Shown here: positions 3,354 to 49,828 of the stretch, one piece after another
How the letters are laid out: every line of letters starts with the position of its first letter
How positions within the stretch are numbered: the stretch's first letter is position 1
The notes under the pieces: generated by a model
Database searches by the model: none
Told to the model about the DNA's origin: nothing
What the model saw: only the letters and a program-made list of their open reading frames with translations
Made by a program: the position numbers and the translations under genes
Assembly (NCBI RefSeq): GCF_030053135.1
Contig: NZ_CP125652.1
Location: forward strand, 930,001-994,000
DNA length: 64,000 nucleotides
From: Rhizobium sp. BT04
GTDB taxonomy: Bacteria; Pseudomonadota; Alphaproteobacteria; Rhizobiales; Rhizobiaceae
Direction: 5' to 3'

Positions 3354-3438
3354 CCCCTCATCCGGCTGCCGCCACCAACCGGGGTCGAGCCACAGGTCTC
3401 GACCCGTCTTTCGGCCCCCCGCTCGCGGGGAGAAGGTG
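3354..3438. repeat. Palindromic intergenic repeat (RIME-like), copy A
   Basis: About 85 bp beginning with CCCCTCATCCGGC, with an internal inverted repeat (GGTCGAG ... CTCGACC) and a CGCGGGGAGAAGG end. It aligns in opposite orientation with 6187-6276, and its ends match the shorter forms at 13909-14077. The overall look is that of the intergenic mosaic elements reported from rhizobia, but family membership is inferred from memory. Confidence 0.6.
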
Positions 3439-3468
3439 ATATGCCGCAACGCCTCGACTCCCTCCAGC

Positions 3469-4302
3469 CTATAGCAAGGCAAACAGCGAAAAATTGTCCA
3501 TCACGACAGAATTGCCCATGAAGTCGAAACGGATTTCTTCGATGTCTTCGAGATTGACCTCGAGATTGGGGCCGGTGACCTCAAGCTCCTGTTGATAGAC
3601 GATCTGGCCATCGTTCAGGGCGGTGAGCGTCAGGTGAAAGGGCGCTGCCGACAATTCGGCAATCGAAACGCTCTGAAAGGTGAATTCCCCGCCATCGAGC
3701 ATTTTCAAGCTTACGGGCGCAGAACCGGGCGATAGGACCGTATCGCTGAAACCGTCCTCGGTGATGGCGTCGACGCCCGGGATGGTATCATAGACATACC
3801 CGTTCAGAAGCGTCAGGTCGTGGCTGCCGTTCACCGAAAGTGCAAAGTTGCGGTAGTCAGGCAGAGAGAAATTATCCGCCCTCGAGGTGACGCCCATGTC
3901 GTCGAAATCCAGGACTTCGTGGTATTTTTCGCCTACGTCGACGCCGTCGATCGCAAGGGTCAGCACGCCGACGTCCGTGCCCCCTGAGCCATCGGACATC
4001 TTGAAGCTCAGCGTCTCGATGAGCTGATCGTATTTCCCTAAATTTTTCACGACGTCGAGCGTGTAGTCCAACTCATATTCGAAGTGGCCGTCTGGCTTCA
4101 CTCTGAAGGTTCCGTACTCGCCCTTGATGATCGTTTCATGGTCAGGTCCATGTTTGGCGTCGATACGCACGCCATTGACGAAGCGAGCATACATGTTCGC
4201 TCCCTCGGGATCGCTGGACAGACGCAGCAGATTCCCGCGGATCCAATTGTCTTCGAAAAAAACGAGAAGGTCGTCGACAGCAGTTGGCTTTGCATTTGTC
4301 AT
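3469..4302 (-). CDS. VCBS/cadherin-like domain protein
   Basis: The 277-residue product starts at ATG 4302 (MTNAKPTAVDD). A longer frame to 4485 adds an Arg-rich, non-conserved leader and was not used. Residues about 1-125 resemble a VCBS or Ig-like adhesin repeat: a TAVDD opening, the GTFRVKPDGHFEYEL strand pair, then FKMSDGSGGTDVGVLTLAI. The remainder is beta-rich and ends with a phenylalanine pattern (VVMDNFSLFALL). There is no Sec signal peptide. In this family secretion is often by type I systems with C-terminal signals, but no type I exporter is nearby. It may be a secreted or surface adhesin-like protein; its partner and function are unknown. It sits alone between two fumarase genes. 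Confidence 0.65.
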   Translation of the reverse strand: MTNAKPTAVDDLLVFFEDNWIRGNLLRLSSDPEGANMYARFVNGVRIDAKHGPDHETIIKGEYGTFRVKPDGHFEYELDYTLDVVKNLGKYDQLIETLSFKMSDGSGGTDVGVLTLAIDGVDVGEKYHEVLDFDDMGVTSRADNFSLPDYRNFALSVNGSHDLTLLNGYVYDTIPGVDAITEDGFSDTVLSPGSAPVSLKMLDGGEFTFQSVSIAELSAAPFHLTLTALNDGQIVYQQELEVTGPNLEVNLEDIEEIRFDFMGNSVVMDNFSLFALL

Positions 4303-23678: not shown

Positions 23679-24608
23679 ATGAAAATAGCGCGCACCATGC
23701 TCGCGTCTGCTGCACTGCTCGGCCTCATGCTCGGCCCCGTACACGCGGCGGAACTGAAGAAGCTCGGCTTGGCCGTTGCCAACCTTCAGGCAAACTTCTT
23801 CAACCAGATCAAGCAATCGGTCGAAGCCGAAGCCAAGAAGCGCGGCATCGAAGTCATCACGGTTGACGCCAAGGGCGACGGCCCGACACAGGTCAACCAG
23901 ATCCAGGACCTCCTGACTCAGAAAATCGACGCGCTGATCTACATTCCGGCAGGTGCGGCGGCTGCGACCGTTCCGGTCAAACTCGCGAAGAGCGCTGGTA
24001 TTCCGGTCGTCAACGTTGACCGCAACGCCGAGGGAGCGCCCGGCGATACCTTCCTTGCAACGGATTCCGTCGCCTCTGCCAAGGCGGTGTGCGACTACAT
24101 CCTGAAGGAAGCCGGCGGCAAGGGAAAGATGGTCATCATCCACGGCCAGAAGGGCACGACGCCGGAGGTCGATCGCTCGAAGGGCTGTGCTGAATCTCTG
24201 AAAGCATATCCTGATGTCAAGGTTGTCGCCGAGCAGTTCTCGAACATCTGGAGCCAGGACGAAGGCTTCCAGATCATGCAGAATATGCTGCAGGCAAATC
24301 CGGACGTTTCGATCGTGTTCGCCCAGGCCGACGGTCTCGCCCTTGGCGCCGCCCAGGCGATCAAGGTCGCCAATCCATCGCAGAAGATCGTGGTTGGTGG
24401 TTTCGATGGCGACACCGCAGCTCTCGAAGCCCTCAGCAAGGGCGTCTTCAACGTAACTGCGACCCAGCAGACACAGAAAATGGGCCGCGATGCGGTTGAA
24501 AATGCCGCCAAGCTTGTCGCCGGAGAAAAGGTGCCGCCGGTCCAGCTCATGGATGCCACGTTGACGACCAAGGAAAACGTCGCAGGCTTCATCGCCAACC
24601 ATCCGTAA
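23679..24608 (+). CDS. Sugar ABC transporter periplasmic binding protein, RbsB type
   Basis: The 309-residue protein has a Sec signal ending GPVHAAE and a periplasmic binding protein type 1 (Peripla_BP_4) fold. Landmarks are LGLAVANLQANFFNQIKQSVEAEAKKRG, DLLTQKIDALIYIPA, PVVNVDRNA, VVGGFDGDTAALEAL and FNVTATQQTQKMG. The aromatic and acidic residues at these places usually stack against a pentose or hexose. ATG 23679 follows CGGAGG. The next gene is separated by a structured repeat. It should bind the substrate of this catabolic island, likely a pentose, pentitol or branched sugar. Confidence 0.94.
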   Translation: MKIARTMLASAALLGLMLGPVHAAELKKLGLAVANLQANFFNQIKQSVEAEAKKRGIEVITVDAKGDGPTQVNQIQDLLTQKIDALIYIPAGAAAATVPVKLAKSAGIPVVNVDRNAEGAPGDTFLATDSVASAKAVCDYILKEAGGKGKMVIIHGQKGTTPEVDRSKGCAESLKAYPDVKVVAEQFSNIWSQDEGFQIMQNMLQANPDVSIVFAQADGLALGAAQAIKVANPSQKIVVGGFDGDTAALEALSKGVFNVTATQQTQKMGRDAVENAAKLVAGEKVPPVQLMDATLTTKENVAGFIANHP

Positions 24609-24711
24609 CGCATCGGCCCGAAAATCGGAATCGATTTTCGGAAAGCACGATGCGTAGATTCAAAGCGTTAGAGCGTCCTTTGTGCGTCCAAACGGACGCA
24701 CGGCGCTCTAA
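24608..24711 (+). repeat. Structured intergenic repeat, copy 1 (binding-protein/ATPase junction)
   Basis: The element begins at the binding-protein stop codon. Helix P1 is ACGCATCG / CGATGCGT (24608-24615 and 24648-24655). Within it, P2 is CCGAAAATCG / CGATTTTCGG with a GAAT loop (24618-24641). P3 is TTAGAGCG / CGCTCTAA (24668-24675 and 24704-24711) enclosing P4, GTGCGTCC / GGACGCAC (24682-24701). Copy 2 lies at 48835-48937 and keeps all helices through paired base changes, with constant ATTCAAA and TCCTTTG linkers. Probably a stabilising or processing element for binding-protein mRNA. Confidence 0.7.
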
Positions 24712-24738: not shown

Positions 24739-26217
24739 ATGACTGACCCGGTTCTTTCCCTGAGGGGCATATCCAAGTGGTATGGGCCGCTCCAGGTTCT
24801 GAAGAATGTCAGCTTGGACGTCTATCCGGGCGAAGTGGTTGCACTTCTCGGTGAAAACGGAGCGGGCAAGTCGACGCTATCGGGCATCATCGCCGGGTCC
24901 CGCACACCGTCCGAAGGATCAATGACATGGCTGGGGCAGCCTTATGCCCCGGCCACCCCTAGGGAAGCGATCGACAAGGGCGTCGTCCTGATCCACCAGG
25001 AACTGCAGCTTCTGCCGCAGCTGTCGATCGCGGAAAACGTCTTCATCGGACGCTGGCCGATGAAGAACGGTGTCGTCGACCGTGCCCAAATGGTTCGCCG
25101 GGCCCAGGACCAGCTCGCGCGATTGAACCTTCACATACCCGCAACGCGAACGGTCGCCGGCCTTTCGACAGCAAATCAGCAGCTCATCGAGATCGCCAAG
25201 GCGCTGGCTCTCAACGCAAAGCTGCTGATCCTCGATGAGCCGACAGCCGCGCTTGGCGGCGCGGAGACGGAAGCTCTCTTCGAACAGGTGCGGAAGCTTC
25301 GCTCGGAGGGCGTCGGCATCGTCTACATCTCCCACCGCATGGAAGAGATCAAGCAGATCACCGACCGGATCGTCGTTCTTCGCGACGGTGAGCGCGTGCA
25401 GGAATTCTCAGACAGCGCGACCCCGGTGCGCACGATCGTCGAGAGCATGGTCGGACGCCCGCTTGACCGCTTGTTCCCCACCCTGCCCGTTCCGACAGAC
25501 CGTCCGGTCCTTGAGGTATCCGGGCTGAGCTCGCCTGATAACGCGTTCCGTGACGTTAACTTCGAGGTGCGGGCCGGGGAAATTCTCGGGATTGCCGGAT
25601 TGGTCGGCGCCGGCCGCACCGAACTGGTGCGCGCCATTTCGGGCGCGGACCCAATCAGTGCAGGTTCGATCAAGCTGGAAGGCGAAGAACTCAGGCTGCA
25701 CGATCCGGCCGACGCGATCGCCAAGGGGATCGTGATGGTTCCGGAAGACCGCAAGGAGCAGGGCCTGATCGTCGGCCACCGGATCAGCGAGAACATTATC
25801 TACGCCAATCTCGACAAGCTGGGCGGGCGTTGGATTACGCCGCGCATCAAGCGCTCGTTTGCAGAAAAGGCAGTTGCCAAGTTCGGCGTAAAGGGCCGCG
25901 CAGAGCAATACGCCTCGGACCTTTCCGGCGGCAACCAGCAAAAGGTCGTGATCGCCAAGTGGCTTATGCGCGATCCCAAGGTCGTCGTGCTCGACGAACC
26001 GACGAGAGGCATCGACGTCGGCGCCCGGGCGGGCATCTACGACATCATCGTCAATCTTGCCAAACAGGGCGTGGCGGTCATCGTCGTAAGCTCGGACCTC
26101 GAGGAAGTTCTCGGAGTCTCCAATCGCATTCTCGTGCTTGCCCAAGGCAAGCAGGCGGGGATCCTCAATCGTGACCAGGCAAATGACGTTTCGGTCATGG
26201 AGCTAGCCACCATCTAA
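24739..26217 (+). CDS. Sugar ABC transporter ATPase, RbsA type
   Basis: The 492-residue protein has two fused nucleotide-binding domains. The first has Walker A GENGAGKST near residues 38-46, the degenerate signature AGLSTANQQLIEIAKAL, and Walker B LLILDEPTAAL. The second has the usual divergent P-loop region GLVGAGRTELVRAI, signature LSGGNQQKVVIAKWL and VVVLDEPTRGIDVGA. ATG 24739 follows GAGGAGGT. It energises import through the RbsC-type permease; such transporters carry sugars and polyols. A structured repeat separates it from the binding-protein gene. Confidence 0.95.
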   Translation: MTDPVLSLRGISKWYGPLQVLKNVSLDVYPGEVVALLGENGAGKSTLSGIIAGSRTPSEGSMTWLGQPYAPATPREAIDKGVVLIHQELQLLPQLSIAENVFIGRWPMKNGVVDRAQMVRRAQDQLARLNLHIPATRTVAGLSTANQQLIEIAKALALNAKLLILDEPTAALGGAETEALFEQVRKLRSEGVGIVYISHRMEEIKQITDRIVVLRDGERVQEFSDSATPVRTIVESMVGRPLDRLFPTLPVPTDRPVLEVSGLSSPDNAFRDVNFEVRAGEILGIAGLVGAGRTELVRAISGADPISAGSIKLEGEELRLHDPADAIAKGIVMVPEDRKEQGLIVGHRISENIIYANLDKLGGRWITPRIKRSFAEKAVAKFGVKGRAEQYASDLSGGNQQKVVIAKWLMRDPKVVVLDEPTRGIDVGARAGIYDIIVNLAKQGVAVIVVSSDLEEVLGVSNRILVLAQGKQAGILNRDQANDVSVMELATI

Positions 26218-48030: not shown

Positions 48031-48804
48031 ATGCATATCTCCACCCGTATTTTCGCGGCAGCCTCGATCGCGGCGATATCCCTTTTCGCCGGTTCGGCCA
48101 TGGCCGATGGCGAGAAGTATGTGATCGGCACCGATTCGACCTATCCGCCCTTCGAATTCGTCGATGCCAGCGGCACGATCCAGGGCTTCGACATCGACAT
48201 CACCAAGGCACTCTGTGCCCAGATGAAGGCCGAATGCTCCTTCGTCAGCACCGATTGGGACGGCATCATCCCGGCGCTCAACGCCAAGAAATTCGACATG
48301 ATCGTTTCCTCCATGTCGATCACGCCGGAGCGCCTCAAACTCGTCGACTTCTCCAACAAGTACTACAACACCCCGCCGGCCGTTGCCGTGCCGAAGGATT
48401 CGACGATCACTGACGTTGCCGGCCTGAAGGGCAAGGTGATCGGTGCGCAGACCTCGACGACACATGCCAACTACGCCGAGAAGCATCTCGCCGACACCGA
48501 GCTGAAGCTCTATCCGACGGCTGACGAATACAAGCTCGACGTTGCCAGCGGCCGCGTCGATGCCGTCATCGACGACGTCGTGGTGCTGTCCGAGTGGGTC
48601 AAATCCGACGCCGGCGCCTGCTGCAAGATCCTGACGACCCTGCCGGTCGACAAGGAAATCAACGGCAACGGCGCAGGCATCGCCATTCGGAAGGGCGATC
48701 CGCTCAAGGAAAAGCTCAACACCGCGATCGCCGCGATCCGCGCCAGCGGTGAGTACAAGAAGATCCAGGACAAGTACTTCGATTTCGACGTTTACGGCGA
48801 ATAA
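48031..48804 (+). CDS. Polar amino acid ABC transporter binding protein
   Basis: The 257-residue periplasmic protein has a signal peptide ending AGSAMADGE. The family 3 fold begins YVIGTDSTYPPFEFVDASG, with GFDIDITKALCAQMKAEC, MIVSSMSITPERLKLVDFSNKYY, and an unusual late cysteine pair (DAGACCKIL). It is most like lysine/arginine/ornithine, histidine or opine binding proteins. ATG 48031 follows CAGAGAGG. The permease genes follow after a structured repeat and an intrinsic terminator. Confidence 0.93.
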   Translation: MHISTRIFAAASIAAISLFAGSAMADGEKYVIGTDSTYPPFEFVDASGTIQGFDIDITKALCAQMKAECSFVSTDWDGIIPALNAKKFDMIVSSMSITPERLKLVDFSNKYYNTPPAVAVPKDSTITDVAGLKGKVIGAQTSTTHANYAEKHLADTELKLYPTADEYKLDVASGRVDAVIDDVVVLSEWVKSDAGACCKILTTLPVDKEINGNGAGIAIRKGDPLKEKLNTAIAAIRASGEYKKIQDKYFDFDVYGE

Positions 48805-48834
48805 GAAATTCGTTATTTGGCCGATGAAAGCTAC

Positions 48835-48937
48835 TGCATAATTCCTTAAATCGGAATCGATTTAAGGATAAAATTATGCAGCCATTCAAAATGTTACAGC
48901 GTCCTTTGCGCGTCTGAAAAGACGCGCGGCGGTGTAA
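48835..48937 (+). repeat. Structured intergenic repeat, copy 2 (binding-protein/permease junction)
   Basis: Helices correspond to copy 1 at 24608. P1 is TGCATAATT / AATTATGCA (48835-48843 and 48872-48880). P2 is TCCTTAAATCG / CGATTTAAGGA with the same GAAT loop (48843-48868). P3 is TTACAGCG / CGGTGTAA with one mismatch (48894-48901 and 48930-48937). P4 is GCGCGTC / GACGCGC (48908-48914 and 48921-48927). Most stem differences from copy 1 are compensated on the partner strand, which supports a functional RNA fold. It begins 30 bp after the binding-protein stop. Confidence 0.7.
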
Positions 48938-48971
48938 TGGCGGAAGGCTTGCTCTTCCGCCATTTTTGTTT
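48938..48971 (+). terminator. Intrinsic terminator / attenuator after the binding-protein gene
   Basis: TGGCGGAAG and CTTCCGCCA form a perfect 9-bp stem with a 7-nt loop, followed by TTTTTGTTT. It lies 50 bp upstream of the first permease gene. It should limit readthrough, so that binding protein is made in excess over the permeases; a TTGACA sequence at 48970-48975 could also start a separate permease promoter. Confidence 0.7.
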
Positions 48972-49021: not shown

Positions 49022-49828
49022 ATGGGCGGATTGTTTTCCGCGCTTGGCTCCTTCTGGAGCTCACTTGTGCACATTTTCGATCCGCTATGCGGACCCGTTG
49101 GCATCTTTACCTGGTTTGGTCAGTCGACGCTTCTTGCGTGTGGCGATACCGGCTGGGGCGACGAGATCGCGCTCGGCTTGCAGGTTACCGTTTCCGTGGC
49201 GATCGTCACCTTGCCGATCGGCCTCATCATCGGTTTTCTCGTGGCGCTGGGCCAGCAGTCCGAGGAAAAGCCGCTGCGGCTGGCGGCCGGCATCTACACC
49301 ACGATCTTCCGCGGCCTGCCGGAGCTTCTGACGCTCTTCATCATCTATTACGGCATGCAGATGCTGATCCAGTCTTTGCTGACCTTCGTCGGTTATGACG
49401 GACCGCCGGTCGAGATCAACGCCTTCTTTGCCGGCGTCATCGCGCTTTCGGTGGTCTTCTCCGCCTATTGTTCGGAAGTGCTGCTCTCGGCCTTTCGCGC
49501 CATTCCCAAGGGGCAATATGAGGCGGGCGACGCGCTTGGGCTGCATCACGGCCGCACGCTGCGCCTGATCATCCTGCCGCAGCTCGTGCGCATCGCGCTG
49601 CCGGGCCTGACGAACCTCTGGATGGTGCTCCTGAAGGACACCTCCTACGTCTCGATCATCAGTCTTGCCGATATCCTGCGCCAGACGAGCGTCGCAGTGC
49701 GTGTTACCAAGGAACCCTTCTTCTTTTATGGCCTGGCTTGTTGCCTCTATCTGGTGCTCGCCGTCCTCTCCTCCTTTCTGCTTGTCTATGTCGACCGCTG
49801 GGCCAAGCGTTCGGAGGTCCGGCGATGA
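49022..49828 (+). CDS. Polar amino acid ABC transporter permease (HisQ type)
   Basis: The 268-residue inner-membrane protein shows the binding-protein-dependent permease fold. It has GLQVTVSVAIVTLPIGLIIGFLVALG, IFRGLPELLTLFIIYYG, and the EAA-loop region EAGDALGLHHGRTLRLIILPQLVRIALPGL that docks on the ATPase. ATG 49022 follows GAGGGGAATT. It overlaps the second permease gene by 4 bp. Confidence 0.94.
   Translation: MGGLFSALGSFWSSLVHIFDPLCGPVGIFTWFGQSTLLACGDTGWGDEIALGLQVTVSVAIVTLPIGLIIGFLVALGQQSEEKPLRLAAGIYTTIFRGLPELLTLFIIYYGMQMLIQSLLTFVGYDGPPVEINAFFAGVIALSVVFSAYCSEVLLSAFRAIPKGQYEAGDALGLHHGRTLRLIILPQLVRIALPGLTNLWMVLLKDTSYVSIISLADILRQTSVAVRVTKEPFFFYGLACCLYLVLAVLSSFLLVYVDRWAKRSEVRR

Follow-up and report, generated by a model that had tools for sequence, protein, structure and literature searches.

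Rhizobial intergenic regions reportedly harbor Rhizobium-specific intergenic mosaic elements (RIME), which Osteras is said to have described in 1995 as mosaic units of about 105–108 bp with two large palindromes; RIME1 was reportedly described from the chvI-chvG region. In enterobacteria, a hairpin repeat of the REP type follows the binding-protein gene inside an operon at malE-malF. According to the accessible part of one report, REP units are 20–40 bp long (PMC3733652). For Caulobacter, the accessible part of a 2007 review describes CcrM-associated intergenic repeats (CIR) of about 110 bp, which consist of two arms and a linker, carry the loop GANTC in one arm, and have TA at the termini with no terminal inverted repeat; a target-site duplication is entered there with a question mark (PMC2229807). 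Bru-RS1 and Bru-RS2 of Brucella are intergenic stem-loop palindromic repeats of 103–105 bp, as given in the available part of PMC2267715, and Sm-4 and Sm-5 are intergenic repeats of S. meliloti, a member of a sister genus, whose places were taken from the available part of PMC2780559.

In the present study, we analyzed a 64,000-nt stretch of the genome of Rhizobium sp. BT04 (the window), in which two copies of a two-arm repeat lie downstream of binding-protein genes (Table 1). Both features are very probably recent insertions of a non-autonomous, two-armed palindromic repeat of about 101 bp that belongs to the RIME/CIR kind. The repeat agrees with the description of RIME in being intergenic and mosaic, in its two large palindromes, and in its similar length, and this is a likeness of description rather than of sequence. 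Hits of the covariance model described below lay upstream of a chvG-type gene, for which we take PF13756 to be the mark, in 2 of 42 loci, which is a positional hint towards RIME; the one such locus that was read showed a two-arm element beside the apparent chvI 3′ end. As far as the accessible description of CIR goes, the repeat shares with it the build of two arms and a linker, a length of about 110 bp, the terminal TA, and the lack of a terminal inverted repeat, the last judged by eye (terminal inversion extended to the TA and a few bases only). The TA duplication, entered with a question mark for CIR, is seen in the repeat at its empty sites, and the likeness to CIR is again one of description and not of sequence. 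The same holds for Bru-RS1/RS2 as described in the available source, with which the repeat has in common that it is an intergenic stem-loop of similar length. Compared with the shorter REP units, it forms one two-arm unit of 101 bp, and a stabilizing role by analogy would be putative. Identity with Sm-4 or Sm-5 was rejected, the best score among six pSymA/pSymB stretches (two of Sm-4, three of Sm-5, and one unnamed) being 7.9 bits (E 0.52). The repeat is filed in the RIME/CIR kind by description, without a sequence-level name.

Table 1. Features at the two repeat-bearing junctions of the window (positions are those of the window).
Feature	Position	Strand	Evidence
RbsB-type sugar-binding protein gene (Peripla_BP_4), upstream of copy 1	23679..24608	+	
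Left TA of copy 1, the TA of the rbsB stop codon TAA (24606-24608)	24606..24607	+	
Copy 1, two-arm repeat, left-arm subtype A, 101 bp	24608..24708	+	fold z -7.32; model R1 123.5 bits
Right TA of copy 1, target-site duplication	24709..24710	+	comparison with empty sites
ABC ATPase gene (RbsA type, ABC_tran), downstream of copy 1	24739..26217	+	
Amino-acid binding-protein gene (SBP_bac_3), upstream of copy 2	48031..48804	+	
Left TA of copy 2	48832..48833	+	comparison with 68 empty sites
Copy 2, left-arm subtype B, 101 bp	48834..48934	+	fold z -6.72; model R1 119.4 bits
Right TA of copy 2, target-site duplication	48935..48936	+	comparison with empty sites
Native GC-rich hairpin followed by TTTTT, outside the repeat; terminator-like, at the binding-protein/permease junction	48937..48968	+	
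Permease gene (BPD_transp_1), downstream of copy 2	49022..49828	+	

The first-pass annotation had described a four-helix folded copy after each of the two binding-protein genes, and both copies were present as described, with the flanking genes correctly named. The GAAT loop and the linkers ATTCAAA and TCCTTTG, which it gave as common to the two copies, were also as stated. Each copy consisted of two arms, and each arm of two stacked helices. RNA folding of 121 nt yielded −59.4 kcal/mol for copy 1 and −51.9 kcal/mol for copy 2, and in both cases 0 of 200 shuffles were as good. The bit scores in Table 1 come from a model that was itself built with both copies. At the gathering score, neither copy had a match in Rfam.

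To describe the family, the covariance model R1 was built from 21 copies and gave 94 hits at E 0.1. The 77 rows at E <0.001 were reduced to 74 by removing hits that overlapped a copy on the opposite strand, 11 from fetched stretches were added, and duplicates that arose where loci overlapped were dropped. The BT04 genome carried at least 85 copies, a lower bound since 150 candidates out of 2059 were scored; a single blastn run on the same genome yielded 43 matches. R1 hits were found in 9 of 13 genomes, with 0 to 41 in each of eight other members of the genus, and an order-wide scan at 1e-6 with stricter filters detected a hit in 26 of 149 genomes. Among plasmids, 382 and 395 records, mainly of Rhizobium and Sinorhizobium, held relatives, at 976 and 1907 places, respectively. 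These results bore out the earlier expectation that the repeat family is widespread in Rhizobium. Several left-arm types (A, A2, B, C, and others) were combined with two right-arm types; the make-up is mosaic, with exchangeable left arms, two of which were found at one site.

The orthologous junctions of relatives were then compared in filled and empty form. For copy 1, 180 RbsB relatives were found, and the named loci of the best 80 were surveyed. The rbsB-rbsA junction held an intact element in seven loci, a right-arm remnant in two, a weak antisense match in one, and no element in 70; the gap was ≤41 nt in 65 of these 70, and a longer gap with other sequence was present in five loci (L201, L202, L205, L211, and L212). 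Many empty sites of relatives read TAATGAAG, and the filled form reads TA, the element, and TAATGAAG, so that filled and empty junctions differ by one element and a duplicated TA. Two of the seven intact elements (L149 and L152), together with L321 from a further genome, occupied the same site with another left arm, the right arm being closely similar, which may reflect arm exchange in place or repeated insertion. In Allorhizobium undicola (L208), the rbsB-rbsA gap of 321 nt (3428-3750 of the locus) contained palindromes, and its antisense match to the repeat model, which was weak (26.5 bits, E 0.0027), may mark a separate insertion at this junction.

For copy 2, 70 ortholog junctions were read from 120 genomes searched. 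The element was found in two of them (BT04 itself and genome G050) and was absent from 68; at two of these 70 junctions, tandem paralogs are present and the stretch read covers the second one. A third junction (C6:1130164, between SBP_bac_3 and an ATPase gene) was filled in nine genomes and contiguous-empty in six, and the empty sites read AA or AC at the expected TA, so the duplication was not clean there. A fourth junction, outside the binding-protein cases, was filled in three, contiguous-empty in 17, and diverged in two, with a clean TA duplication within a TAA. The duplication was clean at three of four junctions, which gives the repeat the target-site duplication of a MITE. Among 91 copies, TA was present at the left edge of 46, the right edge of 73, and both edges of 37, with an intergenic TA frequency of 2.8%. 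The element TA coincided exactly with a gene end in 13 of 82 abutting ends (six left and seven right); no special rule of insertion into stop codons is claimed, as by a rough estimate random choice of TA in short gaps would give a similar number. In the accessible parts of the literature searched, which did not include the original RIME and CIR descriptions, no statement of a TA duplication was found for the repeat family, and absence from print is not claimed.

Collectively, the repeat turns up dispersed through the genome, with TA on its flanks and in every arrangement of neighboring genes; relatives carry it at some orthologous sites and lack it at others, and its left arm varies from copy to copy, at one insertion site as well. 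It is best read as a TA-targeting, MITE-like, modular element. Against this reading stand the unclean duplication at the third junction, a left TA intact in only 46 of 91 copies, the modest sense bias given below, and the weak L208 match. The clean pairs of empty and filled sites indicate that TA is where a two-arm rhizobial repeat inserts, a point that the accessible part of the 2007 review left open for the similar CIR repeats (PMC2229807). What had looked like regulatory design becomes the footprint of a mobile element, and strains that naturally have or lack the element in one operon can be paired for testing its effects on operon mRNA. The TA duplication at empty sites, the differing left arms at one site, and the absence of preferential GANTC conservation reported below may be new.

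The first-pass annotation had also regarded the paired stem differences between the two copies as covariation and had asked for an excess of compensatory over uncompensated changes in a multi-copy alignment. In the 91-copy alignment, 92.7% of stem cells paired, both-side change was seen in 28 of 38 pairs, and both-side-changed cells numbered 322, compared with a shuffle mean of 91. This alignment was fitted to the model and leans towards structure, and the shuffles do not keep relatedness. Within left-arm subfamilies (three of the 91 copies resembled no left-arm consensus closely enough to enter the left-arm count), both-side-changed cells paired in 114 cases and failed to pair in 11, with about 42 both-changed cells expected from independence; one-side changes that broke a pair numbered 152. 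Stem compensation is real, and uncompensated decay is common. The covariation claim stood in that compensation occurs inside subfamilies, but much of the apparent covariation between the two copies was a difference of left-arm subfamily. Single-side deviations were 94 G-U and 77 A-C on the element strand (86 and 72 under slightly different row filters); read along the transcript, they were 77 and 59 (p 0.14). A count of 119 to 79 was set aside because it included a pair with a G-U consensus. Selection on the RNA strand as judged by G-U versus A-C was not significant. A G-U excess would be expected if the structure were selected as RNA, so these counts give no good evidence for selection at the transcript level, and such selection may still act. 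With no significant strand preference in the stem changes, stem pairing may be constrained in large part at the level of DNA rather than RNA.

The placement of the copies was examined relative to genes called by our own codon-usage script, which makes gene ends and neighbors approximate. The 85 copies comprised 37 tandem-sense, 24 tandem-antisense, 13 convergent, and 11 divergent cases, and 60 copies in relatives comprised 31, 18, 5, and 6, respectively. Among the 81 genes whose 3′ end abutted a copy, SBP_bac_3 occurred three times and Peripla_BP_4 twice, two of these five being the starting cases and the fifth an SBP_bac_3 gene on contig C5 (C5:656855); rarer binding-protein families could be missed, as the Pfam tallies hold the 25 commonest families. 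In a control of 147 of 711 genes, SBP_bac_3 and Peripla_BP_4 were absent among the 25 commonest families listed, where OpuAC, which is also substrate-binding, occurred twice.

It had been claimed that the placement after binding-protein genes was selected for mRNA stabilization, that is, that the repeat was placed or retained at these junctions as a 3′ stabilizer like REP in malE-malF. This is unlikely, since every gene arrangement was used and the element was missing from most of the orthologs read for both operons. The enrichment behind ABC binding-protein genes predicted with this claim was checked with the covariance model. On the main contig, a copy lay directly 3′ of 4 of 24 binding-protein genes of two families (10 PF00497 and 14 PF13407 genes above 100 bits, a set chosen after the hits were seen); the share among genes was about 1.6% (binomial p 5e-4). 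Once the two starting cases were removed, the excess shrank to 2 of 22 (p 0.048; 0.08 after a rough gap-size correction), and the other 20 of the 24 genes had no model hit in the stretches read. A 3′ gap of ≥60 nt was present in 14 of 20 binding-protein genes versus 52% of 859 genes, and these longer gaps offer more target for insertion. Of the 56 genes that abutted a copy in relatives, two matched Peripla_BP_4 (one of them the RbsB ortholog, 98.7% identical), and the 25 commonest families listed for these genes did not include SBP_bac_3. In favor of stabilization, tandem gene pairs showed a sense bias (68 of 110, p 0.017, with some orthologous copies probably counted more than once), which is modest and which neutral insertion would not predict; the transcript-strand G-U excess, on the other hand, was not significant. 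Binding-protein genes of this genome tended to have strong 3′ hairpins: among 20 repeat-free ones (L343–L362), 13 had a hairpin of ≤−18 kcal/mol just after the stop codon, a level reached by 36% of 726 genes and, where the 3′ gap was ≥50 nt, by 41% of 422. Measured as the best 45-nt fold after the stop codon, the median was −21.2 kcal/mol versus −15.8 for the 726 genes (p 4e-4) and −16.0 for the 422 (p 0.002). Because these 20 genes have no repeat copy, the general idea of 3′ hairpins at binding-protein genes is sound by way of native hairpins, but the repeat is not their usual carrier. Copy 2 itself adjoins a native hairpin (−15.5 kcal/mol) with a T-run that was kept in 70 of 70 ortholog loci read (up to 3–4 mismatches), 68 of them without the repeat; this hairpin with TTTTT is probably the real expression-setting element at the SBP_bac_3/permease junction. 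At rbsB, the element was the only strong hairpin, with −56.8 kcal/mol (104 nt) versus −9.5 for one relative's empty junction (60 nt); at this gene, where empty junctions were mostly short and the one that was folded was weak, the repeat could have been co-opted as a hairpin. That the repeat stands behind transporter genes is probably for the most part coincidence and not the mark of a dedicated switch.

A role in DNA methylation, in which GANTC in the arm loop would be a CcrM site that times gene expression or replication, as speculated for the Caulobacter CIR, is very improbable. The P2 loop reads GAATC at 24628 in copy 1 and at 48854 in copy 2, and GATTC occurs at 24657 in the copy 1 linker; GAATC in this loop is a CcrM-type site, a kind of site described in the accessible part of the CIR review (PMC2229807). 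Related repeats of the same genome also carried GAATC or GATTC in the right arm, and GANTC was kept in 49 of the 85 copies with a 4-nt loop. This fraction, however, is about what independent decay of the positions predicts (about 58%), and changes were spread over G (12), A (18), N (11), and T (12), the free N being about as variable as the required positions; 35 of 91 copies had no GANTC at all. Preferential conservation of a CcrM site was not supported, a possible difference from CIR. A family of independently transcribed small RNAs is more improbable still. The Brucella sRNA BASRCI27 (Rfam RF02600) showed similarity to L031, L032, and L152, a similar left arm and a 4-nt bulge going with the matches of 33.1 and 26.5 bits, but these scores lay below the gathering score of 59.8, and copies stood in all orientations to their neighbors; among loci with another left arm, one of four was similar, again below this score (25.6 bits). 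BASRCI27 may itself derive from a related repeat.

Under the preferred reading, that of a mobile two-arm repeat, a putative transposase with TA targets would move the element in trans, and recombination between copies would exchange the arms. Non-coding gaps, binding-protein/permease junctions among them, would tolerate insertion, and so would the TA of a TAA stop codon, since the A or G with which subtype A starts restores a stop. A copy resident in an operon would be transcribed and may act incidentally as an RNA hairpin; the palindrome may be needed for movement, with the pairing constraint perhaps on DNA. A fuller version of this scheme is offered only tentatively: a TA-specific mobile repeat of exchangeable hairpin modules, whose arms are swapped in place by recombination and whose stem compensation persists since movement acts on the DNA palindrome itself, as a cruciform or single-strand hairpin; in a minority of operons, for example rbs, a copy would then have been co-opted as a 3′ hairpin of the sort that binding-protein genes of this genome often carry.

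Sister two-arm repeats with other arms were also abundant in the BT04 genome. Their arm core GCAAAAGTGTGCAGCGGTTTTGC gave 57 matches with ≤2 mismatches, and the reversed-pattern control gave 0. Among 30 fetched repeats with this core (L413–L442), 19 fitted the pattern with TA at both ends, and an extra inner stretch was present inside the arm in L418, L420, L422, L423, L432, and L436.
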